This document shows, piece by piece, positions 1-52,743 of a DNA stretch of 64,000 bases. The notes beneath the pieces are model-generated. The model was not told where the DNA came from. It did not search any database and saw nothing but the letters and a program-made list of their open reading frames with translations. The translations under genes and the position numbers were made by a program. This DNA is from Desulfobulbaceae bacterium (GTDB lineage Bacteria > Desulfobacterota > Desulfobulbia > Desulfobulbales > Desulfocapsaceae). The stretch's first letter is position 1; each line of letters starts with the position of its first letter. The DNA lies in NCBI GenBank assembly GCA_008933635.1, contig WBUQ01000002.1, forward strand, positions 62,001-126,000, written 5' to 3'.

Positions 1-3000
1 ACCTTGTAACCGGTACACTTCCTGGATTTCATTTACGAGAAATTTTGCCAATTCTTTGACACCAAGAACCCTGAGGATATCATTAGGAACGACCGTTCCT
101 TCCATCAGCGGTTCTCCCGCCTGAACATAATCACCCTCATGGACAATAATGTGTTTGGCCTTGGGTACAAGGTACTCTTGGGGTTCACCATACTCTGGAG
201 TTATCAGAACTCTTCTTTTCCCTTTCAGCTCTTTTCCAAAGCTGACCCGACCATCAATTTCCGATATAATCGCTGGCTCTTTCGGTTTTCGGACCTCAAA
301 CAGTTCTGCAACCCGAGGCAAACCGCCTGTGATATCTTTCGTTTTTGAGGTCTCACGCGGAATTTTACCAACAACCGTTCCCGGCTTGATGACATCGCCT
401 TCATTGACGGAAATTATTGAACCAACGGGGAGACTGTAACGGGCATAAGCTTCAGAATCTGGAAGTTTGAGGGTCTTACCCTTATCACCTTTCACAGAAA
501 TGCGAGGATTGAGTTGTGCGCTACCAGCGGAGTGAATAATGACCATTGAAGACTTGCCAGTAACAGCGTCAACTTTTTCCTGCATGGTAATACCTTCAAA
601 GATATCACCATATTTAATAGTCCCGCCAACCTCAGCGACGATTGGAATGGTGTAGGCATCCCAGTCGGCAAGTATTGTGCCTGCATCAACCTCTGCCCCT
701 TCTTCAACCGCAATCTGAGCACCATAGTTGACTTTGAACCGTTCACGCTCACGACCGAGTTCATCCATGATAGAAATCTCGGCATTTCGATTCATTACAA
801 TTTTTATACCTTCTGCATTCTCGACAAAATGCAGATTCTTGAACCCGACTTTCCCTCCTCGCTGCGTCTTCAGTTCTGCCTGTTCTACAGATCGACGCGC
901 TGTACCGCCGATATGAAATGTCCGCATGGTCAACTGGGTTCCAGGTTCGCCAATTGACTGCGCGGCAATGACGCCGATAGCCTCTCCAATATTGACCATA
1001 TGGCCACGACCGAGGTCCCGGCCATAGCAAGCCGCACAGACACCACGACGGGATCGGCAGGACAGTACCGATCTGATCATGACCCGATCTATGCCTGCCT
1101 CTTCGATCAGTCGAACCTTTTCTTCGGTAATTTCCTTTCCAGCTTCAACCAGGATCTCGTCAGTATAGGGATCACAGACATCCTCAAGCGCGACGCGACC
1201 GAGAATACGATCACCAAGCGGAACGATGATTTCACCACCATCAAGGAGAGGTTCAGCGACAATACCATCTAGAGTCTGGCAATCACGTTCAACAATTGTA
1301 GACTCCTGAGCGACGTCAACCAGGCGTCTGGTCAGGTAACCGGAGTTGGCGGTCTTAAGGGCGGTGTCGGCAAGACCCTTTCGGGCGCCGTGAGTTGAGA
1401 TGAAATACTCAAGCACGCCCAAACCTTCCCGGAAATTGGCCTTGATCGGTGTTTCAATGATCGCACCGGATGGCTTTGCCATGAGGCCACGCATACCTGC
1501 CAGCTGTCGGATCTGATCCCTTGAACCACGAGCCCCGGAATCGGCCATGATGAAGATCGAATTAAAGCTCGGGGATTCAACGAGATTATTGTCCTTATCA
1601 CGGAAATAATCGACCTTGATCTCGTTCATCATTTCATTGGCGACATCCTCAGTGACCTTTGACCAGATATCGACGACCTTGTTGTATTTCTCGCCGGAAG
1701 TAATCAGACCGTCGGTATATTGCTGTTCGACATCCAATACATCCTTTTCGGCCTTTTCAATGAAGTCCTCCTTGCTCAGAGGGATTTTCATGTCATTTAT
1801 GCAAATCGAAATCCCTGCTTTCGTAGCGTATTCGTAGCCAATATCCTTGAGACGATCAGCCACGATAACGGTATCCTTGGTGCCAGCGTTCCGGTAGGTG
1901 TAATCTATCAACTGGGCCAGCGCCTTCTTGCTGAGAACCCGGTTAACTTCCTTGAATGGCACGCTTGCCGGCAACAATTGACCGAGGATGATCCTTCCCA
2001 TGGTAGTGTCGACCAGTTCACCATTCATCCTTACCTTGATTTTGGCTTGGAGGTGGACCTTTTCATAATCGTAGGCAATCATCGCCTCAGTCGGATTTGA
2101 AAAGACCTTTCCCTCGCCCGGAACGTTGATACGTTCCCGTGTCATGTAGTACAGCCCGAGAACGATGTCCTGAGATGGGATGATGACCGGCTCGCCATTT
2201 GCAGGGGAGAGGATGTTATTAGTGGACATCATCAGGACCCTGGCTTCTACCTGTGCTTCGACAGACAATGGAACATGTACAGCCATCTGATCGCCGTCAA
2301 AGTCGGCATTGAAAGCCATGCAGACCAACGGGTGCAACTGGATGGCCTTCCCTTCGATCAAGACGGCCTCAAAGGCTTGCATGCCAAGGCGATGCAGGGT
2401 AGGTGCCCGGTTGAGAATGACGGGATATTCAGTAACCACCTCATCCAGTACGTCCCATACTTCCTTCACGCCTTTTTCGACCATCTTCCGAGCACTCTTG
2501 ATAGTCGTTACAAAGCCCTTTCTCTCAAGTTTATTGTAGATGAAGGGCTTGAACAACTCGAGTGCCATCTTTTTCGGAATACCGCACTGGTGTAGCCGCA
2601 AGTGGGGTCCGACGACGATAACTGAACGGCCAGAATAATCAACACGTTTGCCGAGTAGATTTTGCCTGAACCGTCCCTGTTTGCCTTTCAGCATGTCAGA
2701 CAGCGACTTTAACGGACGTTTATTTGCTCCGGTGATGACCCTTCCGCGACGACCATTGTCGAACAAAACATCGACTGCCTCCTGTAACATTCTCTTTTCA
2801 TTGCGAATAATGATATCAGGAGCGTCAAGTTCCAAAAGGCGTTTGAGCCTATTGTTGCGATTTATTACACGTCGATAAAGATCATTGAGATCGGAAGTGG
2901 CAAACCGTCCTCCCTCCAGGGGAACGAGCGGACGCAGATCAGGTGGAAGAACGGGGATGATCTCCAGTATCATCCACTCCGGCTTATTACCTGATTCGCA

Positions 3001-3681
3001 GAACGATTCAATGACATAAAGCCGTTTTCCGAGCTTCTGCCGTTTCGTCTGGGAATTGGTGGACGCCATCTCCTCGCGCAGTTCTTTGGACAAGGCAACG
3101 AGGTCTTTGCTGGCAAGCAGATCACGGATGGCTTCTGCGCCGATGCCAACCCGGAATTTCCCGGGGTATTCCTCACGCATCTGCCTGTATTGATCTTCTG
3201 TGAGCAGTTTTCCGGGAGGTACTCCGTCAATCTCCGATTCAACAACTGCATACTGCTCGAAATACAGGATCTTTTCCAACTGCTTCAACGTCATGTCAAG
3301 AACTGCCCCTATCTTGCTCGGCAGACTTTTCAGAAACCAGATATGGGCCACCGGAGCAGCCAGTTTTATATGCCCAAGACGCTCTCTTCTCACCTTGGAC
3401 TGGATAACCTCGACCCCGCATTTCTCACATACGACGCCCCGATGTTTCATGCGTTTGTATTTACCGCAATTACATTCAAAATCCTTGACGGGCCCGAATA
3501 TCTTCGCACAAAAAAGGCCGTCACGTTCTGGTTTGAAAGTTCGGTAATTTATGGTCTCGGGTTTTTTGACCTCACCATGCGACCAGTCCAAAATCTTCTC
3601 GGGCGATGCCAAGGAAATTTTGACCTTTCTGAACTGCGCAGGTGCTTTTGGTTTCTGAAAAAAATTAAATAACTCTTCCAC
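1..3681 (-). CDS. rpoC: DNA-directed RNA polymerase subunit beta' (partial, 3' end missing)
   Basis: This is the beta' subunit of RNA polymerase, which carries the catalytic magnesium site. 1227 codons are visible and the C-terminus lies beyond the left edge; the family is usually about 1350-1400 residues. The start is a GTG at 3681 preceded by a GGGAGAGG-type ribosome binding site. The N-terminal zinc cysteines sit near residues 70, 72, 85 and 88 ([13 protein letters not shown]). The catalytic NADFDGDQ motif is read from about 2290-2320, and the second zinc cluster ([13 protein letters not shown]) from about 1030-1075. It lies 129 bp downstream of rpoB in the same operon. No frameshift was seen. 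The identification is certain. Confidence 0.98.
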
Positions 3682-3810
3682 GCTGTCACCTCTCCCTTGA
3701 CGAAGGATTTATCCAATAACTGCAATGCTATCGGATTTTGAAGAGATTGTTCACTCAATCGGGAATTAGGAATTTCGGTTCCGTTGACTGCGATTAGTTG
3801 GAACCGCTCT

Positions 3811-6800
3811 CTATTCTTCAATTAACTCCATATTCAGACACAGACCTTGCAATTCCTTTACCAATACATGAAATGACTCCGGTAATCCTGTCGTGAGGAA
3901 ATTGTTGCCTTTGACGATACGTTCGTACATCGTTGTTCGACCTTCAACATCATCAGACTTGGCGGTAAGGAATTCCTTGAGGGTGTACGCTGCGCCATAA
4001 GCTTCCATGGCCCAGACTTCCATCTCACCAAGTCGCTGCCCTCCAAACTGGGCCTTTCCTCCCAGCGGCTGTTGAGTCACCAGAGAGTACGGTCCAGTTG
4101 ATCTGGCATGGATTTTATTGTCGACGAGATGATGCAGTTTCAGCATGTACATGACACCAACGGTAACTTTGTTGGCAAACGGCTCACCAGTCAAGCCATC
4201 ATACAGCTGACTCTGACCGACTTCATCAACTCCAGCTTCAACCAGCAACCGCCTGATTTGACCTTCTTCAGCCCCATCGAAAACCGGTGTTGCCATGTGC
4301 AGTCCTTTCCGATGCTCCCGCGCCCATGCGATCAGTTCGGCATCGTCTTTGCCTGAAACAATAGCAGCATATTCCTCCTTGCTGTAAATCACGGCAAGTT
4401 TCTTCTTGATTGCATCAACCGCATAGTCACGAGCCAGCGCATCGAGTTGTTCGCCGAGTTTCTTGGCTGCAAACCCGAGATGGACCTCAAGTACCTGCCC
4501 GACATTCATACGTGAAGGAACACCAAGTGGATTGAGAACAATATCGACGGAAGTTCCATCAGCGAAAAACGGCATGTCTTCCTCAGGCAGCAAACGGGAA
4601 ACAACACCCTTGTTGCCGTGACGTCCTGCCATTTTATCGCCGACGGATAGCTTTCTTTTTGTAGCGACATACACCTTTACCATCTTGACGACTCCCGGAG
4701 GGAGATCATCTCCTTTCCGCATCCTGTCGATAATACCTTCATACCGATCAGATATGAGTCGAGCCTGTTTCTCATAGCGGTAGAAAGCGGCATCAATCTG
4801 GTCTTCGTATTTGGATTTCTCTGAGAAATCGATGTCACGAAGATTATGAAAGCCAATCTCAAGAGCCATGTCAGCTGCAATTTTTTTCCCAAGCTTGACA
4901 ACAACTTGACCATTGACGCCAACGATATCGCTTTTTGCCGTTCTACCGTCAATGATATTGCCAATCTCACGACAGACGCCGCGCTTCAGGCTGCGGATTT
5001 CATCCACTTTGTCTTGGTTGAGCTTTTCAATCTCAAGATCCTCTATCATCAGAGAACGCTCGTCTTTGTCTACACCTTTACGGGAAAAGACCTTCGCGTC
5101 GATAACGATCCCGGAAACGCCGGGTGGTACGCGTAACGAGGAATCCTTAACATCCTGAGCTTTCTCTCCGAAGATCGCCCGAAGGAGTTTCTCCTCAGGC
5201 GACAATACTGTCTCACCTTTGGGGGTGACTTTGCCGACAAGAGTATCACCAGCTTTCACCTCGGCACCGATACGAACGATACCAGAGTCGTCCAGGTTGC
5301 GCAGCGTCTCCTCACTAACGTTAGGAATATCCCTGGTAATCTCTTCTTTGCCGAGTTTGGTATCGCGAGCCATGGTCTCGAATACCTCGATATGGACGGA
5401 AGTGAAGGTGTCTTCCTTCAGCAACCGCTCATTGATAAGTATAGAATCTTCAAAATTAAACCCACGCCACGGCATGAAAGCGATAGTGACATTTTTGCCA
5501 AGCGCGAGTTCGCCGTGATCACAAGACGGCCCATCGGCCAATACTGTCCCCATTTCGACTTTGGCCCCTGGCAGGATCAACGGTGTCTGATTGAAGCAGG
5601 TATTCTGGTTCGATTTTTTGTATTTTCCCAAACGGTAAACGGCCACCCCGGTATCATAGCCATCCACACCAGGTTTATCATATCGAACTACAATTCTATT
5701 GGAATCGGACTCTTCGACAATTCCGTCTCCTGCACTCAGGAGACATGCGCCTGAGTCCCTCGCAACATAGCGTTCCATTCCCGTTCCAACGAGAGGCGCC
5801 TCTGTCACCATTAAAGGGACAGCCTGCCTCTGCATGTTCGATCCCATCAGTGCACGGTTCGCATCATCATTTTCCAAAAATGGAATGAGAGATGCCGCAA
5901 CACTGACCAGTTGATTCGGGGCTATATCCATGTACGTAACTTTGTCCGCTATAGACGTGACGACCTCGCCATCTTCCCGAACGATTAGGTTGTCGGGAAC
6001 GATCCGCATCTTTTCATCTGTCTCGATGAGTGCGGGAGCAATTACATGTTTCTGTTCCTGCAGTGCGCTGAGGTATTTAACCTCATCGAGAACAATCCTA
6101 TCGCTCACCTTCCTGTATGGCGTTTCAATGAAACCATATGGATTTATCCTGGCGTAGGTAGCGAGAGAAACGATCAGGCCTATATTCGGCCCCTCAGGAG
6201 TTTCAACCGGGCAAATTCTGCCATAATGAGTGGGATGCACATCGCGAACCTCGAAGCCAGCACGCTCACGCGATAAACCACCCGGCCCGAGCGCACTGAG
6301 GCGCCTCTTATGAGTCACCTCAGACAACGGGTTGGTCTGATCCATAAACTGAGACAGTTGACTGGTTCCGAAAAATTCTTTGATTGCTGCAGAAATAGGT
6401 TTTGGGTTCACAAGATCATGGGGCATCAAAGTCTCAACATCCTGGAGGGTCATCCGCTCCTTGATTGCCCGTTCCATCCGGACTAATCCCATCCGATATT
6501 GATTTTCGACCAGCTCCCCGACCGTCCTAACTCTTCTGTTGCCGAGATGATCGATATCATCAACACCACCCTGCGTATCCTTAAGACGAACAAGATAACG
6601 TATAGAATGAACAATATCTTCACGAGTCAGAGCGCGGTTGGCGATGTCGATCTCGAGCCCCAGCTTGGCATTGATCTTGTATCTTCCTACTTCTGAAAGA
6701 TCATAGAGATCCTGATTGAAAAATAAATTATCGAAAAATGCTTGAGCTACCTCAATGGTCGGAGGACTTGAAGGACGAAGGCGCCTGTAGATTTCGAGAA

Positions 6801-7890
6801 GAGCCTCCTCTGTGCTGGCAACCTTATCGGACGCAAGTGTTTTACTGAATGAATCAGAATATTTAACACCATCAATCATCAAGGTTTCAAATTCAGTAAT
6901 CCCCGCCTCCAGAATCGTCTCAAGGAGTGATTCAGTTATTTCTGTATTACATAGCGCAATGATTTCGCCGTTTTTTGGATCAATAAGATTACGTGCGAGA
7001 ACCCGAGTGATGACTGATTCTCGAGAAATTTTAAGATATTCAATACCAGCGGTTTTGATCTTCTTGCAGAGATTCGAAGTAATCTTTCGTCCTTTTTTGG
7101 ATAAAATCTCTCCATCGACAGGATTGACGAGATCAAACTCAAGCCGCTGATTAATGGCAGTTTCCTCATCAAAGTTACAGTAGAAATCATCTCCAGTGCG
7201 CTTGATGGAGTTGATGGGATAAAACTCCTTCAGCAATTCTTCCGACGTGAAGCCAATGGCCTTGAGCAGGGTAGTGGCTGGAAATTTCCGCCGTCGATCA
7301 ATACGTACGTGAAGAATATCTTTAATATCAAATTCAAGATCGATCCAAGATCCTCTTACAGGTATTATTCTTGCTGAATACAACAATTTGCCACTCGCAT
7401 GACTCTTGCCATTATCATGGGTGTAAAACAAGCCAGGAGATCGCTGCAATTGCGAAACTATAACTCGCTCGGTGCCATTTATGACGAAGACACCGTCACC
7501 AGTCATCAGAGGAATGGAACCGAGAAAAACCTCCTGTTCCTTGATATCTCGTATCGACTGGACTCCTGTCTCCTCGTCAACATCATAGGTTATGAGTCTA
7601 ACTACAATTTTTAGAGGTATTTCATAACTCATTCCACGTTGTTGACATTCTTCTACGGTATATTTTGGTTCACCGAATTTATAACGCACAAACTCAAGGG
7701 AGCACTGGCCATTGAAATCTCTGATCGGAAAAATCGATTTAAGAATCGCCTGCAGGCCATACTCTTCACGATCATCGGGGTCACGATCCATCTGCAGAAA
7801 TTTCTCATATGAAATCCGCTGCATTGAAATCAAATGCGGTGGTTCAATTATGCAATCAGCTGATGCAAAATTTTTTCTTACTCGTTCCAT
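3811..7890 (-). CDS. rpoB: DNA-directed RNA polymerase subunit beta
   Basis: The beta subunit of RNA polymerase, 1359 residues, a normal full length for proteobacteria. The N-terminus (MERVRKNFA) is followed by the usual lobe domains. Conserved blocks include [15 protein letters not shown] and [10 protein letters not shown] around the rifampicin pocket, GRHGNKG near residue 1100, and the C-terminal clamp anchor. The ATG at 7890 has a GAGGAAAACT ribosome binding site. It is cotranscribed with rpoC. It is separated from rplL by an unusually long, structured 362-bp spacer, which may let rplL be made in excess over the polymerase subunits. The SQLSQFMDQ block looks wild type, with no obvious rifampicin-resistance change. 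Confidence 0.98.
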
Positions 7891-42376: not shown

Positions 42377-44278
42377 TCAGTGCGTATCTCTGGCAATCTC
42401 TTCAGCACGAGCGGTCAGTCGGTCCCTGAAATACTCTTTCATGACAGCGGTAGCTATCGGAGCAGCACCCGATCCTCCATGCAGACCATGCTCAACCAGA
42501 ACGGTCACCGCAATTTCCGGGTCCTCCGCCGGCGCAAAGGCGGTAAACCAGGCATGATCGCGGAATTTATAGGGGATATCCTCTTCTTTCAGATGTCTGT
42601 AAGCCGCCACCTTGACGACCTGAGCGGTTCCCGTTTTACCGGCGACCGTAATCCCGTCAATCTTTGCACTCCGGGCGGTTCCATGTGGACCGTTGACTAC
42701 ACCAACCAATCCCTGACGGATCAGGGCCAGGTACTTATCAAACCCTTTGATTTCTTCAAGAAGCTCAGGTCGAAACGTCTGTACCACTTTGCCATCCGGA
42801 TCGGTCACCTGCTCGACAATCTGCGGCCGGAACAATTTTCCGCCATTGGCAAGTGTCGCAGTCATTTGACAGATCTGCAATGGGCTGGCCAGGTTGAACC
42901 CCTGCCCGATCGCCGTCGACAGGGTTTCTCCATCCTGCCACTTAGTCTGGTATCGGGATAGCTTCCATTTTTTGGTTGGGGTCAGGCCGCTCTTCTCATG
43001 TTCCAGTTCAACCCCGGTCTTGCGTCCCAGACCAAACTTCCCTGCAAACTCAGCCAGGGTATCAACCCCCACCCGCTGTCCAACCAAGTAAAAATAGACA
43101 TCGCAGGATTCCTCGAGCGCCCGCATCAAGGTGACGGTGCCATGGCCTCCCTTTTTCCAGCAACCATACCGCCGGTTGCCGAAAGTATAATGGCCTGGAC
43201 AGTAAATCGGCGTGTCCGGCGTGATGACACCTGTCGCCAGGCCAGCGAGGGCTGTAACCACCTTGTACGTCGACCCGGGAGGATAGGTTGCCTGCACCAC
43301 CTTGTTGAGCAGGGGGTGTTTGGGATTGTCAAGCAACTCCTGCCACCTCTCATGGGAAATGCCGCCAACGAAATCATTGAGGCGGATATGCGGAGTCGAG
43401 ACAGCGGCCAGAAGCCGCCCCGTCTTCACCTCCATGGCAACGACGGCCCCGGACTTTTCCCCTATCTCCATAAGACTCTCGGCCGCCTGCTGCAGATCGA
43501 CATCGAGTGTCAGGCGGATCTCCCGACCAGGCATCGGGTCGTCGCTCTTCAAGAGCTTCCGCTCAAAGCCTTTTGCGTCAACCTCGGAGTAATTGTTTCC
43601 CTTCTCGCCGCGCAGGTCGGCCTCCCGGAGCTTTTCCAGGCCCATTTTGCCTATCAGATCCCCGCCACGATAAACGGTCTTATCGGCTTCCTCCAGTTCG
43701 GTTTTGCTGATTGCGCCGAGATAACCGATAACATTGGCGGCAAGATCCTGGTAATGGAAAACCCTCACGGGCTGGACTTCGATCCGGATACCTGAAAAAT
43801 CCTTATTGTGGTTCTCCAGGAATGCCAAGGTCTTCCAGTCGATATCCTCTTTCAAGCGAATCGGCAGATAACGTGGTGTACCGGAAGCTTCACGCACCCG
43901 GTTCCACAACACGGTTATATCCTCATTCAGGATCGGTGCCAGACGTTTCAGCACATCGTCCAGATCGCGTGAATCCTCCCGCATCAGCACGACATTGAAT
44001 GCTGGCCGGTTGGTGACGATTTCCCTGCCCTTGCGATCGAGGATATGTCCCCGCGGCGCTGCCACCTGGCGGATGCGCACCCGGTTTGAGTCGGCCCTGT
44101 TTCTGTATTCTTCTCCATGGTTGATCTGCAACGACCAGAGTCGCAGAATGATCAGCGAGAAAAAAACCATGACGACAACGATCGCAGCCCCCACTCTCCG
44201 CCGCAGGCTGTCGAGAGCCGTCTCATCGCGCTCGGTTATCTCATCCGCTTCCTTTGCAAAAAGCTCTCTGAAAATCAT
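42377..44278 (-). CDS. mrdA: Penicillin-binding protein 2 (elongation transpeptidase)
   Basis: A transpeptidase for lateral wall growth; 633 residues. One N-terminal membrane anchor (about residues 28-50) is followed by the pedestal domain with AAPRGHILDRKGREIVTNRP. The active-site serine is in GSTYK near residue 336, with SCDVYFY and VAGKTGTAQ as the second and third motifs, all intact. It lies 24 bp after mreD. It works with RodA, encoded next. Confidence 0.96.
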   Translation of the reverse strand: MIFRELFAKEADEITERDETALDSLRRRVGAAIVVVMVFFSLIILRLWSLQINHGEEYRNRADSNRVRIRQVAAPRGHILDRKGREIVTNRPAFNVVLMREDSRDLDDVLKRLAPILNEDITVLWNRVREASGTPRYLPIRLKEDIDWKTLAFLENHNKDFSGIRIEVQPVRVFHYQDLAANVIGYLGAISKTELEEADKTVYRGGDLIGKMGLEKLREADLRGEKGNNYSEVDAKGFERKLLKSDDPMPGREIRLTLDVDLQQAAESLMEIGEKSGAVVAMEVKTGRLLAAVSTPHIRLNDFVGGISHERWQELLDNPKHPLLNKVVQATYPPGSTYKVVTALAGLATGVITPDTPIYCPGHYTFGNRRYGCWKKGGHGTVTLMRALEESCDVYFYLVGQRVGVDTLAEFAGKFGLGRKTGVELEHEKSGLTPTKKWKLSRYQTKWQDGETLSTAIGQGFNLASPLQICQMTATLANGGKLFRPQIVEQVTDPDGKVVQTFRPELLEEIKGFDKYLALIRQGLVGVVNGPHGTARSAKIDGITVAGKTGTAQVVKVAAYRHLKEEDIPYKFRDHAWFTAFAPAEDPEIAVTVLVEHGLHGGSGAAPIATAVMKEYFRDRLTARAEEIARDTH

Positions 44279-44302
44279 GATGAAGCCATGCGAATCGGAT
44301 TC

Positions 44303-44821
44303 TCAACCCCTCCGTTTCAAAGGACGAGGCTGTGTTTTTCTCTTCTGCAGGAAATCACTCAAGGCATTCAGCAGAACAAAGCAGGGAATAGTGGCAAACA
44401 GCAGAATACCGGTCTCGGCAAACAGTTTACCCCATGACCATTCCGGCAGCAATTGTGGTTCGGTGAACGCATACAGGGTGTAGCGAACCAGTTGCACGAT
44501 AAAATAACTGAGCCCGACCAGAGGTATCTGATACATGGATTCCCGCAACGGGTTGTTGGTCGTCAAGGCCTTCAAACTCACAAAGACGGCAAGACATTCC
44601 AGGGGAAAGATACCGAGGTCGATCCCCGTCAGTACATCCATAATCCATCCCAATGAGAAGACGAGCAGCAAGCCTGGGATCCAGGCAAAACGATACGCGG
44701 TATAAGCAACAAGAATGTAAATGAAATCAGGACGTCCAAGCCACGACGGGAATGAATGCAGGAGTGTTGTCTCAAATACGATAAGCAGAATACCAAGCAG
44801 GAAAAAGCAGAATGTCAGCAC
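44303..44821 (-). CDS. mreD: Rod-shape-determining protein MreD
   Basis: A polytopic inner-membrane protein of the elongasome; 172 residues with about five hydrophobic spans. FPSWLGRPDFIYILVAYTAYRF near residue 28 and SLGWIMDVLTGIDLGIFPL near 60 are typical. I start at the GTG at 44821 because AGG lies six bases upstream; a TTG at 44827 is the alternative. Only about 12 bp separate it from mreC. Confidence 0.9.
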   Translation of the reverse strand: MLTFCFFLLGILLIVFETTLLHSFPSWLGRPDFIYILVAYTAYRFAWIPGLLLVFSLGWIMDVLTGIDLGIFPLECLAVFVSLKALTTNNPLRESMYQIPLVGLSYFIVQLVRYTLYAFTEPQLLPEWSWGKLFAETGILLFATIPCFVLLNALSDFLQKRKTQPRPLKRRG

Positions 44822-44833
44822 GCGCAACCTGTA

Positions 44834-45709
44834 TCATTCGGCCGTCAGGTTCATCTCACGCAGAATTTTCTGCCTGTCGGTCGGATCGATGAAAACATAT
44901 TCCAGTTTCTGGAAGTCAACGGCCGGCTGGACCTCTATTTCCAAAAACATCCCCCGCTCTTTCTCCCGCACTGCCGATACCGTGCCAAGAGGCACGCCGG
45001 GTGCAAAGACTCCTCCGATGCCGGCCGTGACGACATGATCGCCCTCGCTCACGTCAGTCTTTTTCAAGACGTAATTGAGGACGAATCCCTTCTCGCCGGC
45101 CCCTTTCAGGATGCCGCGAGCCCTGCTCTTCTGCACCATAGCATCAATGGCGCTGCTCGGTGCATTGGCAAGCAGGACTTTCGCATAATGCTCGGAAACA
45201 TGAATGACCTGACCGACAACGCCCTGAGGGGTAAGGACGACCATCCCCTCCTCAACATCATCAGCCTTGCCACGGTCCACGAGAATCGTCTGGAACCAGT
45301 AGGCCGGGTCCTTGCCGACAACCCGGGCCGACAGCAATTTGAACTCCTGTTTCTCCTTGAAATCAAGCAAAGCCTGAAGGTGAAGGTAGGTGCGGTATGA
45401 TTCGCGGTATTCGCCGAGTTCGTTCAAATACTTATCAACAAGCAGGCGCAGGCGCTTGTTCTCCGCCCGGACACTCCACAGATCGATATAGTCCCGGGAA
45501 AAATCGGAAAACCCATCGACGGATTTCGTGACAACAGCCTGCAGCGGGCTGATGACATCCAGGGTCAACTGATGTATCGCTCCGAACCTCTCGCCGATCA
45601 TTGACGCGAACACCAGCAGGGCTACCATTCCAACAGTACCACCAAGGAGGAGAATCCTGATGGCGGGAGTTCGTATATGCCCTTTTTTTCCGTTTGCTCG
45701 CTTTCTCAC
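44834..45709 (-). CDS. mreC: Rod-shape-determining protein MreC
   Basis: A periplasmic scaffold of the elongasome; 291 residues. It has a positively charged N-terminus (RKRANGKKGHIRTP), one membrane span (about residues 17-37), a coiled coil (about 65-105) and two beta domains with GVVGQVIHVSEHYAKVLL and GDHVVTAGIGGVFAPGVPLG. The start is a GTG at 45709 and the ribosome binding site is weak. It lies 94 bp after mreB. Confidence 0.94.
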   Translation of the reverse strand: MRKRANGKKGHIRTPAIRILLLGGTVGMVALLVFASMIGERFGAIHQLTLDVISPLQAVVTKSVDGFSDFSRDYIDLWSVRAENKRLRLLVDKYLNELGEYRESYRTYLHLQALLDFKEKQEFKLLSARVVGKDPAYWFQTILVDRGKADDVEEGMVVLTPQGVVGQVIHVSEHYAKVLLANAPSSAIDAMVQKSRARGILKGAGEKGFVLNYVLKKTDVSEGDHVVTAGIGGVFAPGVPLGTVSAVREKERGMFLEIEVQPAVDFQKLEYVFIDPTDRQKILREMNLTAE

Positions 45710-45803
45710 AAATCTCTACACAACAGGAGCGGCAGGCTCCATGAATATCGCTCGATAAGGATCGCTGTCGATCTACTCCAGGTGAGGAGCCGGCACAAAG
45801 GGC

Positions 45804-46868
<1,065 letters not shown>

Positions 46869-47440: not shown

Positions 47441-48655
47441 ATGAAAATCGATTTCGGACAGTTCATTCATGCTCTCTCAGATACCATCGACCTGGTCGGG
47501 GTCGACGAGGTCCAGCATGGCAAGCGAGTTGGCTATATGGCCCTCGAATGCGCAAAAACCATGGGGCTTGCCGCTAAGGACCAGATCAGGCTTTACCGCC
47601 TTGGTCTCCTACACGACTGCGGCGTATCTTCAACCCGCGTGCATAAGAAGCTGGTTGACGAACTTGATTGGCCGGAATCCCAGTACCATTGCAGTATCGG
47701 AGCAAAGCGAATGCAGGGATTCGCGCCACTGGCCCAGTTCGCTGACGCCATTCTCTACCACCATACACGCTGGGATGAGCTCAGGCACATTCCGCTGTCA
47801 GACGAGACCCGGGATCAAGCCAACCTGATTTTTCTTCTCGACCGGGTGGATGCGCTTGCCTGCATGACAGGCAATCCCAACAGACTTGCTGCCAGCAACA
47901 CCATCTGCCGTAAAGTGACACATTACCGGAACAGCTATTTCAAATCCGAGCTGGTCGAAATTTTCCTCGCCACATCCACCAAAGAAGCGTTCTGGATCAC
48001 CCAGCAACCTGAACATCTGCGAAATTACCTGCAGCTTAAAGTCAGTGCACCCGCCGAACTGCACCTCGACACGAACCAGTTGACGGATATGGCCAGGATC
48101 TTTGCCGAGATTGTCGATGCCAAGAGCACCTATACCGCAGAACATTCCTTCGGGGTAACCCGTCTGTCCGGCCATCTCGCCAGTCAATGCCAGCTCCCTG
48201 AGACCACGACCATGAAACTGCAGGTTGCCGGTTTGCTGCATGATCTCGGCAAACTCCAGGTCCCAGATGCGATACTTGAGCACAGGGGATACCTGGAAGG
48301 AGAGAATCTGGCCATCATGCGGCATCACAGCTATGTCACCCATATGATTCTGAGTCGCATCGGCGGCCTGGAAGAGATCGCCCTCTGGGCATCAAATCAC
48401 CATGAGAAGATTGACGGCAGCGGCTATCCATTCAGAAGAAAAGGAGATGAATTGAGCGTTGAATCGCGGATCATCATAGTCGCCGACATCTTCCAGGCTC
48501 TCGCCCAGAATAGACCATACCGAGCCCCACTCCCGCTGGATACTATCGTGGATATCTTGGCGAGGCAGGCATCGGATGGAAAACTGGACCCGGATATTGT
48601 CGCTATCGTTCAAGCGGAACCGGACCATTGCCTTGCTGTTGCAACCGGACAATGA
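47441..48655 (+). CDS. Tandem HD-domain protein with C-terminal HD-GYP
   Basis: 404 residues. The C-terminal half (about 205-400) is a full HD-GYP domain, the cyclic-di-GMP phosphodiesterase family: AEHSFGVTRLSGHLA, LLHDLGKLQVP, MRHHSYVTHMILSRIGG, NHHEKIDGSGYPF, and ADIFQALAQNRPYR. The N-terminal half (about 20-190) looks like a second HD fold (QHGKRVGYMALECAK, LLHDCGVSS, LYHHTRWDE) without a GYP motif. No membrane span or receiver domain is present, so it is cytoplasmic. The ATG at 47441 has a poor ribosome binding site. It stands alone on the plus strand. Confidence 0.88.
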   Translation: MKIDFGQFIHALSDTIDLVGVDEVQHGKRVGYMALECAKTMGLAAKDQIRLYRLGLLHDCGVSSTRVHKKLVDELDWPESQYHCSIGAKRMQGFAPLAQFADAILYHHTRWDELRHIPLSDETRDQANLIFLLDRVDALACMTGNPNRLAASNTICRKVTHYRNSYFKSELVEIFLATSTKEAFWITQQPEHLRNYLQLKVSAPAELHLDTNQLTDMARIFAEIVDAKSTYTAEHSFGVTRLSGHLASQCQLPETTTMKLQVAGLLHDLGKLQVPDAILEHRGYLEGENLAIMRHHSYVTHMILSRIGGLEEIALWASNHHEKIDGSGYPFRRKGDELSVESRIIIVADIFQALAQNRPYRAPLPLDTIVDILARQASDGKLDPDIVAIVQAEPDHCLAVATGQ

Positions 48656-48909: not shown

Positions 48910-49938
48910 ATGAAAGGAATCACCATTATATGGATCTGCACATCATTTCTACTGACAGGCTGCACCTTGGGAAATTTCGGCGGAATCCCTCAGACAAAAC
49001 CCTCCAGACAGGAACGACTCTCCCACGCCGATCTTCTCAGAGAAGAGGCCAACCTCAGCAAATTACTGAAAAGAGAGCCAGGCAATGCGTCGGCGCAACA
49101 CGCCCACGGGCGGATCCTCCTTGCCCTTGAGCAGCCGCGTCGGGCAATAATCAGCCTCAAACGAGCAGTTGACCTTGACGACAGCAATGCCGACTACCAG
49201 TTCTGGCTCGGAGTGGCATATGGAGAGAATGATCAGGCATCAGAGGAGCAGGTCCGGTACATGCGGGCACTTCAGGATGATCCGCAACATGTATTGGCGC
49301 TGGTCTATCTGGGAAACAACTACCTCAAACGCAGGATGCTCCAGCCGGCGTTGAACTGCTACCGGCGCGCCCTCGAAATAGATCCATCAAACAACCAGGC
49401 ATTATTTAACCGCGCCGTCATCTATCACCAGTTACAGCAGACTGCCGAGGAAAAGCTCGCCTGGAAACTCTATCTTGAGGCTCATCCTGCCGGTGCGTTG
49501 GCCCGGAAGGCCGTCGATAATCTCAATCTGCTCAATGATTTTTCCTATCGCAACCACTATCTCGGCCATCGGGTACTGACTTTACCGGCAATCACCTACA
49601 CTCCGTTCTCTGCCGAGCTCAACCAATCGGACCGGAAAAGCCTCAGCCAAATCGGGTCCCTTGCCGCCAACCTCAGGGGATCACTCAATGTTCTCGTTTA
49701 CCAGACGAACGATCGGGAACTGGCGCGAAACAGGGCGATTGAAATCAAAAGATTTCTTGAGAAGGCATATCCGGCACTGGCCGCTGACAACAGAATACGG
49801 ATCAGCTGGTTTGACGTACCCGAGAAGAAAAAATCAGCTGGCCGCATGCACCTGATCGACGATTCCACCGTATTTTTCCTCGCTGTTTCTCCCAAAAAAC
49901 CGATCAAGTTGATCAAAAAGGGCAAGACTAAAAGGTAA
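48910..49938 (+). CDS. TPR lipoprotein with OmpA-like C-terminal module
   Basis: 342 residues. A lipoprotein signal peptide ends LLTGC, with Cys 18 as the lipidated residue. Residues 38-200 contain TPR units (ALEQPRRAIISLKRAVDLDD; ALNCYRRALEIDPSNNQALF). The C-terminal 120 residues resemble an OmpA-like peptidoglycan-binding fold (LNVLVYQTNDRELARNRAIE, then a helix and RIRISWFDVP), though not all canonical residues are clear. The same TPR-plus-C-terminal layout recurs in the membrane protein at 50594-51733. The ATG follows GAGG. It is probably in the outer membrane, 105 bp upstream of the sigma gene. Confidence 0.8.
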   Translation: MKGITIIWICTSFLLTGCTLGNFGGIPQTKPSRQERLSHADLLREEANLSKLLKREPGNASAQHAHGRILLALEQPRRAIISLKRAVDLDDSNADYQFWLGVAYGENDQASEEQVRYMRALQDDPQHVLALVYLGNNYLKRRMLQPALNCYRRALEIDPSNNQALFNRAVIYHQLQQTAEEKLAWKLYLEAHPAGALARKAVDNLNLLNDFSYRNHYLGHRVLTLPAITYTPFSAELNQSDRKSLSQIGSLAANLRGSLNVLVYQTNDRELARNRAIEIKRFLEKAYPALAADNRIRISWFDVPEKKKSAGRMHLIDDSTVFFLAVSPKKPIKLIKKGKTKR

Positions 49939-50043
49939 GAGCTGAAAGATTTTCACACCACAGATGTGACCTTCATTCCAGACTGAACGTATATCCTTCA
50001 AACATATTCAACCTTCGACCCGATAGAGCAACCCCCCGGCCGG

Positions 50044-50604
50044 ATGCATCCAACAGACAAAGAAATTGTCCGGGAAGTTCTGGCCGGGAAAAAGCAGCGG
50101 TTCGCCGAAATCGTCACACGGTACCAGCAGCCGGTGTTCAATCTGATGCTTCGCTCCACCCGGGATGAATATGACGCCGCCGACCTTACGCAGGAGGTAT
50201 TCTGTAAGGCATATAAAAAATTGGCGACTTACCGTCCCGAGTTCAGCCTTTTCTCCTGGCTGTACACCCTGGCCATCAATGTTGCCAACGACTGGGGACG
50301 TTCACAGGCCCGTGCGCACAGGAGACTGCAAGCTCTAAAATATGGTGATCTCAATTCAACTATCATTACATTTGGCAACAACGACACAGAGGCCCGGGAA
50401 CGAGAGAAGATGCTGGAAGCAGCCCTTGCGCAACTCCAGACCGAAACCCGTGAGATTCTGATTCTGCGCTACCGCCACGAACAACCTGTTCGCGATGTGG
50501 CTTCAGCCTTTAAAATGACCGAAAGTGCAGTAAAAATGCGGGTTAAACGGGGCCTGGAGCAGCTGCAGAAAATCCTCAGCGAGATGAACGACCATGTCAG
50601 ATAA
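50044..50604 (+). CDS. ECF-type RNA polymerase sigma factor
   Basis: 186 residues with the two domains of group IV sigma factors. Sigma-2 (about residues 20-90) has YQQPVFNLMLRSTRDEYDAADLTQEVFCKAYKKL and SWLYTLAINVANDWGR. Sigma-4 (about 120-180) has the helix-turn-helix RHEQPVRDVASAFKMTESAVKMRVKRG. Its end overlaps the next gene by 11 bp. That gene encodes a membrane protein in the position of an anti-sigma factor, so translation is coupled. The target promoter is unknown; I could not identify a self-regulated ECF promoter in the 105-bp upstream gap. Confidence 0.93.
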   Translation: MHPTDKEIVREVLAGKKQRFAEIVTRYQQPVFNLMLRSTRDEYDAADLTQEVFCKAYKKLATYRPEFSLFSWLYTLAINVANDWGRSQARAHRRLQALKYGDLNSTIITFGNNDTEAREREKMLEAALAQLQTETREILILRYRHEQPVRDVASAFKMTESAVKMRVKRGLEQLQKILSEMNDHVR

Positions 50605-51733
50605 TCCATTCGAGATTGAAAAAATAGAATCGATGCTGCGGAAAATACCCGAACGCGAGGCACCATCGGGATTATGCGGGCATGTCATGAATACTATTCT
50701 CGACTGTGACTATTCCTCAGATTTATTCGGCAAACTGAAATACTGGGGAGAGAGGATATTGTGGCACCATATTCCCCTGATCAGGGGTGGAGCCATGACG
50801 GCAATGGTTGCCGCCGCCTTTTGGATTGGCCTCGAAGTAGGCAGCCAAGGCGGTGAGGAGAAAACCTATTTCTTGTCGGAAGAGGGCAAACCGCTTGTTT
50901 TCGCGAGCAAATTCCATACCATTCCTCTCGATGACGGCACGGGACTGTTCGAAGATCGTAAGACATATTTTTCACCGGATTTTTTCCCCAGGTCGATAAC
51001 CCTTGAAACGCCTGCTCAAGGAAAAGCTGGGCCGGCCACCGTTAATCGAGCTACAAACAGCACGGAAAAGGCCCTGCGGAACAACCAGCAATCGAACAGC
51101 GGAGCGACCAATTCAATCCTGTTCCTACTCAACCTCGCCCGCAATCTGTCAGATAGCGGCAATTATCCGGGGGCTCTGCACCAATACGAAAAGATACTGA
51201 GGATAAATCCGCAGGAACAGACAGCGCTTTTCAACCGTGCCATCTGTCTCAACCGGATAAACGATACGAAAAACGAGCAGCAGGCCTTCACCGGCTATCT
51301 GGATCACTACCGGACGGACAGGTGGGCCATCGAGGCAGTGGCCTATCTTCAGGAGATCGGCGTGTTCGACTACCAGGTCGTGATCATAGGCGGCAGAAAA
51401 ATTGTCGTCAACCAGAAGGTCCTTCTCGGTTCACATGCCCAGGCCCGGCAACAGGAACTGGAGCGACTGATGACATACCTTTCGCAGTACCCATCCGGCG
51501 AACTCCATCTGGTTGTTTTTTGTCAGGACGATCTCGAATTGGGAAAAACTATCGCAACCCGGCTCAAACGACAGATCCACGCCCTCATCGGCAACAACCG
51601 CGAAATACCGGTGCGGATCAGCTGGTTCGATGAGCCCGCTCTGATCCGGACCGCCAAAGGAGCCCAGCACGAACTGGAAAAAGGCCTTTTCCTCTTCACC
51701 CAACCATCCGCACAGCAAAGGAGCAGGATATGA
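50594..51733 (+). CDS. Membrane anti-sigma-like protein with TPR and OmpA-like module
   Basis: 379 residues. The short N-terminal cytoplasmic part (1-60) has a helix set and Cys-His residues (CGH near 28) where anti-sigma domains usually lie, but no clear zinc HxxxCxxC motif. One membrane span is at about 61-83. The outer part has TPR units (NYPGALHQYEKILRINPQEQTALF) and a C-terminal module ending PVRISWFDEP, closely like the lipoprotein at 48910. It overlaps the sigma gene by 11 bp and the next gene by four (ATGA). A role as sensor that holds the sigma factor is inferred. Confidence 0.75.
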   Translation: MSDNPFEIEKIESMLRKIPEREAPSGLCGHVMNTILDCDYSSDLFGKLKYWGERILWHHIPLIRGGAMTAMVAAAFWIGLEVGSQGGEEKTYFLSEEGKPLVFASKFHTIPLDDGTGLFEDRKTYFSPDFFPRSITLETPAQGKAGPATVNRATNSTEKALRNNQQSNSGATNSILFLLNLARNLSDSGNYPGALHQYEKILRINPQEQTALFNRAICLNRINDTKNEQQAFTGYLDHYRTDRWAIEAVAYLQEIGVFDYQVVIIGGRKIVVNQKVLLGSHAQARQQELERLMTYLSQYPSGELHLVVFCQDDLELGKTIATRLKRQIHALIGNNREIPVRISWFDEPALIRTAKGAQHELEKGLFLFTQPSAQQRSRI

Positions 51734-52743
51734 AGACACGAAAGACACAGGGAAAATCTGCTATACAGAGAATACTGCTATCAACGTTCCTGTTTGGCCT
51801 GGCAACGGGCATATCGCCCGCCCTGGCCGCCGACGATCCGATCGACGAGCCGGTTGAGAGCTATTATGCAAACCCGGCCCAGGCTGCGCATGCCGCTCAG
51901 CTTGCCGAGCAGGTTGCCATGACCAACGACCAGCAGGTGGAGGAAACCCAGCTGGCGGTTGATAGTGCCGAGGAGGATGTTGCAGCCGCCCAGGTGGAGT
52001 TGACCGCGGCACAGGAGGCATTCGATGCCGCACAAGCCGATCTCGATGCCATGCTGGCTGATCCGAACTTCGATCCTGATTCACCCGAATATTTAGACGC
52101 TGTGAGCGCTCATGACGCCGCGCAGAACGCCCTGGAAGAGGAGCAGCAGCAGTATGATGCTGAACAGGCCAAGCTGGAAACCCTCGAAAACAACTTGACC
52201 GAACTTCTTGCTTATGATGCAGGTGTCACGGCCGCTGAAATTGAGCAAATGCGCCGAGATGGCCTCGGATGGGGACAGATTGCCCATGAACTCGGAGTAC
52301 ACCCCGCAGCCCTGGGCCTTGGTCACAGCAACAAAGCCAGAAATCGGAACACCCAAACCATAATGACCGCCGCCGAAATCGAGGAAGTCAATACACAGGA
52401 AATGGCCGAAAGTTCGGTTCGAAACACCGGCAACGGTCTGGCCAAGAGCCGGAGCAAAAGCATAAAGGCCCAGGTCCACGAGCCAGGTACGGGGCTTACT
52501 GCTGGTACAACCGCTGCCGCCTCATCAGATGCAGACGGCAGAAGCAACGGCACAGCCAGTAGCAGCGAGAAAGATGGGGTTGGCAACAGCGGAAACGCAA
52601 ACGGCCGCGGAGGAGATGACAAGGGCGGCAGCAATGGCAAGGGCGGCGGCAATGGCAAGGGCGGCGGCAATGACAAAGGTAATAGCGGCGGGAACGGCAA
52701 GGGTGGTGGCAATGGCAAGGGCAACAGCGGCGGAAAAGACTGA
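51730..52743 (+). CDS. Secreted coiled-coil protein with Gly/Asn/Lys-rich tail
   Basis: 337 residues. The signal peptide covers about 1-33 (hydrophobic stretch then SPALA). Residues 60-165 form a long Ala/Gln/Glu-rich coiled coil. A compact motif follows at about 173-197, MRRDGLGWGQIAHELGVHP, a helical signature I have seen in other secreted proteins of delta-type bacteria but cannot name. The last 90 residues are low complexity (GGNGKG repeats, positively charged). It is translationally coupled to the anti-sigma-like gene by ATGA. An envelope or extracellular structural role is inferred. Confidence 0.8.
   Translation: MKTRKTQGKSAIQRILLSTFLFGLATGISPALAADDPIDEPVESYYANPAQAAHAAQLAEQVAMTNDQQVEETQLAVDSAEEDVAAAQVELTAAQEAFDAAQADLDAMLADPNFDPDSPEYLDAVSAHDAAQNALEEEQQQYDAEQAKLETLENNLTELLAYDAGVTAAEIEQMRRDGLGWGQIAHELGVHPAALGLGHSNKARNRNTQTIMTAAEIEEVNTQEMAESSVRNTGNGLAKSRSKSIKAQVHEPGTGLTAGTTAAASSDADGRSNGTASSSEKDGVGNSGNANGRGGDDKGGSNGKGGGNGKGGGNDKGNSGGNGKGGGNGKGNSGGKD
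52619..52740 (+). repeat. Degenerate 18-bp tandem repeats encoding GGNGKG units
   Basis: Units of the type GGCAAGGGCGGCGGCAAT repeat about six times with small changes. They encode the tail of the secreted protein and may vary in copy number between strains. Confidence 0.85.

Follow-up and report, generated by a model that had tools for sequence, protein, structure and literature searches.

Background

When an extracytoplasmic function (ECF) sigma gene lies between the genes of two similarly built envelope proteins, the question arises what the sigma factor responds to and what it controls. We addressed it for positions 48910–52743 of a 64,000-nt stretch of DNA (hereafter, the window) from a Desulfobulbaceae bacterium. 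Among named organisms, Desulfobulbus sp. Tol-SR and Desulfoprunum benzoelyticum are closest to it; the order to which it belongs, Desulfobulbales, comprises sulfur-cycling sediment bacteria. The locus holds four open reading frames (ORFs), all on the forward strand, for a lipoprotein, an ECF sigma factor, a single-span membrane protein and an exported Gly-rich protein with a GWGQ motif (the GWGQ protein). We propose, with a probability of about 0.72, that it encodes a local, self-amplifying envelope switch, in which an anti-sigma factor sequesters an autoregulated ECF sigma factor and senses the envelope through a periplasmic module composed of tetratricopeptide repeats (TPRs) and an OmpA-like domain. 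The operon, its promoter, the paralogy of the two TPR proteins and the homology of the anti-sigma domain were established computationally.

The lipoprotein gene (48910–49938, 342 aa) is followed by the sigma gene (50044–50604, 186 aa), whose product has the make-up of an ECF sigma factor, with sigma-70 regions 2 and 4 present (PF04542, 8e-14; PF08281, 3e-10), region 3 absent and a length of ~190 aa; its nearest solved structures are Pseudomonas aeruginosa sigma-H/AlgU, SigW and sigma-E. The membrane-protein gene (50594–51733, 379 aa) shares 11 bp with the sigma gene (50594–50604) and 4 bp, ATGA, with the gene of the exported protein (51730–52743, 337 aa; overlap 51730–51733). Pfam models recognised TPRs in both the lipoprotein and the membrane protein, while a Pfam scan of the exported protein returned nothing reliable. 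An earlier note on this DNA had described the four ORFs, both overlaps and a GNGKG tail, all of which were recovered, the ORFs at the same positions; the lipobox LTGC is present as well.

Conservation of the four-gene unit

A profile of the lipoprotein was run on 258 genomes of the order Desulfobulbales, 50 of which passed the threshold of E ≤ 1e-20; removal of five partial TPR matches left 45 genomes from three families. ORF maps of the DNA around the matches revealed a recurring gene order of lipoprotein, ECF sigma factor, membrane protein and GWGQ protein, and most relatives of the lipoprotein were encoded within such an operon, which D. benzoelyticum DSM 28570 also has (L032, L053). In 34 stretches the lipoprotein occurred together with both the membrane protein and the GWGQ protein, most of the remainder being cut by contig ends or representing variants, and the junction between the last two genes was a 4-bp ATGA overlap in 34 of 37 cases. 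A single complete operon (L121) also came from another, distant family of the same phylum. Within Desulfobulbales these four genes form a real, conserved unit. The earlier note had held that its proposal would fall if homologous loci did not keep these genes together; the conservation of order and junction across Desulfobulbales and L121 shows that they do.

Paralogy of the lipoprotein and the membrane protein

Pairwise BLASTP alignment of the lipoprotein with the membrane protein (E = 8e-18, 28% identity over 207 residues) indicates that the motifs common to both, ALFNRA and ISWFDxP, reflect homology and not chance. These motifs, first pointed out in the earlier note, are family signatures with invariant cores: N-R-A and S-W-F did not vary among 18 lipoproteins, nor SWF among 14 membrane proteins. 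In a maximum-likelihood tree of 92 modules, the 49 lipoproteins all lay to the same side of a branch (100/94), and the 41 Desulfobulbales anti-sigma modules made up a single clade (100/100), with the L121 membrane module alone falling outside it, weakly placed. On these comparisons the two modules are paralogues from one ancient duplication, the tree being silent as to which copy is ancestral. The duplication proposed earlier is therefore real, but its separate clades make it ancient rather than recent. Nor is the architecture of the two proteins, though homologous, the same throughout: the membrane copy no longer has the first TPR units in the genus of the window, and residues 83–171 (or, more narrowly, ~85–156) are predicted to be unstructured where other genera have TPR sequence.

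In the lipoprotein, the lipobox (Cys18) is followed by TPR helices (residues ~39–207) and an OmpA-like beta-alpha domain (residues ~213–325). The residue after the cysteine is not Asp, which under the Escherichia coli rule would direct the protein to the outer membrane. Its predicted structure (mean predicted local distance difference test score, pLDDT, of 87) shows the C-terminal strand/helix order of OmpA-like domains. PF00691 (OmpA-like) matched 14 of 18 family members (best 1.3e-7); the window's own lipoprotein was not one of them, and both it and the membrane copies are assigned to this fold by homology only. A profile of the domain found the OmpA-like PA0833-PD, YiaD, MotY and Tpn50, with E near 0.001 for PA0833-PD only. 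Foldseek searches with models of both proteins returned only TPR proteins, because TPRs dominate the models, and the OmpA-like fold thus rests on sequence profiles and strand/helix order. The lipid-binding fold of MucB/RseB had no Pfam or NCBIfam match in the proteins of this system, which have TPRs and an OmpA-like domain instead.

An Asp and an Arg of OmpA bind peptidoglycan. In our alignment the loop with this Asp falls in a deletion, so that canonical peptidoglycan binding is not expected; the Arg, within 'RA', is mostly kept. By profile and alignment, then, the C-terminal domain of the family is OmpA-like with the peptidoglycan-binding Asp loop deleted, and the module named in the earlier note belongs to that fold family but lacks its binding loop. 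Compared with PF00691 proteins (Pal, YiaD, the OmpA C-terminus), the lipoprotein domain agrees in sequence family and fold order and differs in this deletion and in the TPRs that precede it. Were the lipoprotein and the membrane protein an ordinary peptidoglycan-binding Pal/OmpA-like pair that neighbours a sigma gene by chance, the PF00691 matches would follow, but the family-wide loss of the Asp loop, the conservation of the operon, the coupling of its genes and the promoter described below make such a coincidence very improbable.

The membrane protein as a probable anti-sigma factor

The third gene encodes a minimal N-terminal domain (residues 1–61; 50594–50776), a transmembrane helix (residues 62–84; 50777–50845) predicted from structure, hydrophobicity and the family's conserved F-W-x-G, and a periplasmic module (residues ~157–370; 51062–51703) in which TPR units precede a degenerate OmpA-like domain. 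The N-terminal domain reads LExxLRxLPExxxPxxLxxRIM and contains no HxxxCxxC zinc motif, which is absent in all family members.

A profile (A5) of the ~60 cytoplasmic residues plus transmembrane helix was built from 22 relatives and used to search 247 genomes of the phylum; two of its rows, L121 and L123, do not belong to the order and help to form a bridge to other families. An ECF gene was located directly upstream, or within about 700 bp upstream, in 29 of the 30 loci taken, a handful of which are members of the family itself; the thirtieth begins at a contig end. Most proteins matched were classic HxxxCxxC anti-sigma factors, with the aligned segment (LxxLxEIEPPxWLxxKIMAxV) immediately C-terminal to their zinc motif. 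Among PDB entries the profile matched RsiW best, at residues 48–77, though weakly (E = 0.097) and with only a helix-4-like segment aligning; a single-sequence PDB search with the domain gave no match. An NCBIfam 'anti-sigma factor' model matched the same region of two homologues (5e-5 and 4e-4) below its curated cut-off. Class I anti-sigma domains contact sigma2 mainly through their helix 4 (PMC7406223). The family seems to have kept a helix-4-like element and dropped the zinc site. A gene beside that of the sigma factor, a membrane anchor, a cytoplasmic N-terminal domain and profile homology of this domain to anti-sigma domains together make the protein class I-like, and it is very probably an anti-sigma factor, as the earlier note had supposed from its position.

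Alternatively, the membrane protein could be an activator, an escort or a sigma-independent partner, with gene order reflecting co-expression only. Its domain does appear to lack the three-helix bundle seen in canonical class I members, yet the ECF adjacency of the profile A5 loci, most of them with canonical zinc anti-sigma motifs, renders this very unlikely.

TPR/OmpA-type anti-sigma factors were not found described in the literature searched, although a numbered, undescribed group of them may stand in the supplementary tables of PMC7406223. Anti-sigma factors with an AMPK1_CBM domain in Desulfobacterota (L123, L158) have the same minimal N-terminal domain with a transmembrane helix and are encoded directly downstream of an ECF gene, but their sensor is carbohydrate-binding-like and not TPR/OmpA-like. 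The L123 cluster (2752–5770) comprises an ECF gene, the anti-sigma-like protein with its AMPK1_CBM (glycogen-binding-like) sensor, an unknown protein and, as a separate gene, a TPR-OmpA protein.

Promoter and extent of the regulon

The segment between the lipoprotein and sigma genes was searched for promoters in 40 operons, with random segments of the same lengths as control. TGTGAC-N16/17-CGTA, allowing at most one mismatch, was present in 33 of the 40, compared with about 2% of random segments; four more operons had AGTGAC-N16/17-CGTA overlapping the lipoprotein stop codon, bringing the total to 37. The consensus was wTGTGACC-N16-CGTATATC, with GTGxC and CGT invariant across the 33 sites. 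In the window the predicted promoter, which the earlier note had missed, occupies 49965–49995 on the forward strand, with TGTGAC(C), a 17-bp spacer and CGTATATC. The stricter TGTGAC-N16/17-CGTATA occurs once in the entire 4.55-Mb genome, at 49965 (0.00 expected in the window, 1 observed). Judged by sequence, this would be a bipartite, autoregulatory promoter of the ECF type. Because it lies between the lipoprotein and sigma genes, the lipoprotein of the window stands upstream of the autoregulated unit and not inside it, which alters the place it had been given. A second copy of the promoter was found upstream of the lipoprotein in eight loci; in two of the genomes scanned, both copies were within the operon. 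Most likely, as far as these motifs indicate, the sigma factor drives its own gene, the anti-sigma gene and the GWGQ gene, plus the lipoprotein gene in some genomes.

Two other lines of analysis were set aside. A motif search that fixed the spacer at 16 bp and covered the region before the lipoprotein had overlooked the window's promoter, which has a 17-bp spacer and precedes the sigma gene, and an association between a sigma4.2 residue and a promoter before the lipoprotein (Fisher p = 6e-4) was overtaken by the observation that all clades have the same promoter before sigma.

Across 32 genomes, strict promoter matches outside the operons did not exceed a reversed-pattern control, and a wide regulon is therefore unsupported. 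This bears on a second interpretation of the same autoregulated unit, namely that its sensor responds to damage of the envelope in general (misfolded or mislocalised components, as with RseA/RseB), the lipoprotein-like module serving only as a suitable scaffold for protein binding and the GWGQ protein being a stress-induced surface product. In its favour, TPR domains can bind many peptides, the solved sigma factors closest to this one act in envelope stress, and the sensors of related anti-sigma domains are freely swapped, as in the AMPK1_CBM proteins above. A damage response would, however, be expected to command a wide regulon, yet the strict promoter is essentially confined to the operon, and the pairing of the module with the lipoprotein is kept throughout. 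We regard general damage sensing as possible but somewhat unlikely.

Sigma-less pairs and the exported protein

Neighbouring lipoprotein and GWGQ genes without sigma and anti-sigma genes were detected in at least 10 loci (L043, L046, L048, L082, L085–L089, L110). In the tree they fall in at least two places: the L043 and L046 lipoproteins nest among those of complete operons, and L048, L082, L085–L087 and L089 form a separate clade. The pair can therefore function by itself; the sigma/anti-sigma genes were probably added for regulation, or can be lost, and the pairs suggest that the lipoprotein and the exported protein are functional partners. Control of these pairs by the sigma factor in trans was rejected for now, as most of them have no shared motif in front of them and promoter matches show no out-of-operon excess. 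One genome (BRH_c16a; L083–L087, L110) contains two sigma operons and four sigma-less pairs; the latter are near copies of each other, with upstream regions that look conserved and carry no ECF-type promoter.

The exported protein consists of a Sec signal peptide, alpha-helical regions, a 40-residue GWGQIAHELGVHPG domain with the GWGQIA motif (in the window, the GWGQIAHELGVHP domain at 52225–52350) and a tail in which Gly is accompanied by Asn, Ser, Lys, Asp or His and which in the window is Gly/Asn/Lys-rich. The domain has weak helix-turn-helix-like profile similarity (best PF13936 HTH_38, E = 0.0021, L121 homologue only); no Pfam or NCBIfam model scored above cut-off for GWGxIAxxLGxxP in the members tested, and no description of the GWGQ motif was found in the literature. 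Other exported proteins of the phylum contain the domain as well, usually with Gly/Lys tails and with no such operon. GWGxIAxxLGxxP is widespread among exported Desulfobacterota proteins with Gly/Lys tails, including some of ~150 aa (L142–L144, L147, L149, L151, L152). Composition would be consistent with an extracellular or surface structural role. As separate observations, L034 (6681–7778) and L070 (8759–10495) have as fourth gene exported Met/Asn/Asp-repeat proteins (NMNMHDNMNM...) with long Gly-Ser runs.

Genomic neighbourhood

In the window a divergent rod-shape cluster, reading mreB-mreC-mreD-mrdA, adjoins the operon (42377–46841, reverse strand), as it does in L031 (4779–9335) and L032 (10492–15001). 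The window shares this neighbourhood with two relatives from its genus, and it is not preserved in other genera; no conserved flanking genes were found around operons outside that genus. Between the rod-shape genes and the operon, 47441–48655 (forward strand) encodes an HD_5-domain protein with two HD-like halves, possibly a phosphodiesterase.

Discussion

Several elements of the switch are inferred from these results: that the sigma factor is bound, what releases it, which ligand is read, and where the GWGQ protein resides and what it does. In the proposed switch, the short cytoplasmic domain of the membrane protein would hold the ECF sigma factor until the periplasmic TPR/OmpA-like module reads a change in the envelope and this hold is relieved. 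The freed sigma factor would then use TGTGAC-N16/17-CGTATATC to transcribe its own gene, that of the anti-sigma factor and the translationally coupled gene of the exported Gly-rich GWGQ protein, while in some genomes the second promoter copy would also drive the lipoprotein. The lipoprotein and the anti-sigma sensor most likely recognise the same thing, since they share one ancestral module. Because the lipoprotein and GWGQ genes also occur as pairs without the sigma gene, this common ligand is likely to be either the exported GWGQ protein or the partner module, met across the periplasm. In a narrower version, which we consider doubtful, the sensor would respond to whether the GWGQ protein is exported or present at the surface, and lipoprotein and anti-sigma factor would compete for that protein, giving an export-coupled feedback that holds surface or matrix material at a set level. 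The outline of the earlier note, a conserved ECF envelope system built on a duplicated module, thus stands; the two halves of one sensor and the wall- or matrix-associated product are conjectures of that note.

Several observations weigh against the proposed switch. The anti-sigma domain is short, with three short helices before the transmembrane segment predicted at low confidence (pLDDT ~50–65). No common promoter motif was found upstream of most sigma-less lipoprotein/GWGQ pairs. In L034 and L083 the fourth protein has a GWGQ-like N-terminus (FAxPAEAxxAA), with Met/Asn/Asp repeats and Gly-Ser runs in place of the GWGQ domain, so that the GWGQ protein cannot be a universal ligand unless its conserved N-terminal part is what is read. 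Finally, the operon-like L047 has sigma and GWGQ genes and no intact anti-sigma gene, and is possibly a degraded or unregulated copy; this locus (4693–7474) contains lipoprotein, ECF and GWGQ genes, with a C-terminal extension on the sigma protein.

Set beside SigW-RsiW, AlgU-MucA and RpoE-RseA (PMC7406223), the system is alike in its adjacent overlapping genes, its anti-sigma factor with one transmembrane helix, the helix-4-like 'PPxxLxxRIM' and autoregulation through a TGxxAC / CGTA-type promoter. It differs in having no HxxxCxxC and no clear three-helix bundle, in a TPR plus degenerate OmpA-like sensor that is paralogous to a co-encoded lipoprotein, and in an exported GWGQ protein as output. 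As in RpoE-RseA-RseB and AlgU-MucA-MucB, the cluster encodes a second envelope protein that could plausibly touch the periplasmic domain of the anti-sigma factor. Whereas RseB and MucB are unrelated to RseA and MucA, however, the second protein here is a lipoprotein homologous to the sensor, and it normally lies outside the autoregulated unit.

An ECF sigma factor with a class I-like anti-sigma factor is a known kind of system; what appears new is the lipoprotein-type sensor and the unusual exported product, their function being predicted. The locus represents a sigma/anti-sigma system of Desulfobulbales that is inherited vertically and had not been characterised, and whose evolutionary logic is unusual in that sensor and lipoprotein are twins. 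It yields a testable promoter, a widespread exported domain and a minimal anti-sigma domain that seemingly works with neither the canonical bundle nor a zinc site. If the lipoprotein and the anti-sigma factor do read the same ligand, this would be a regulator built by copying a structural part of the envelope.

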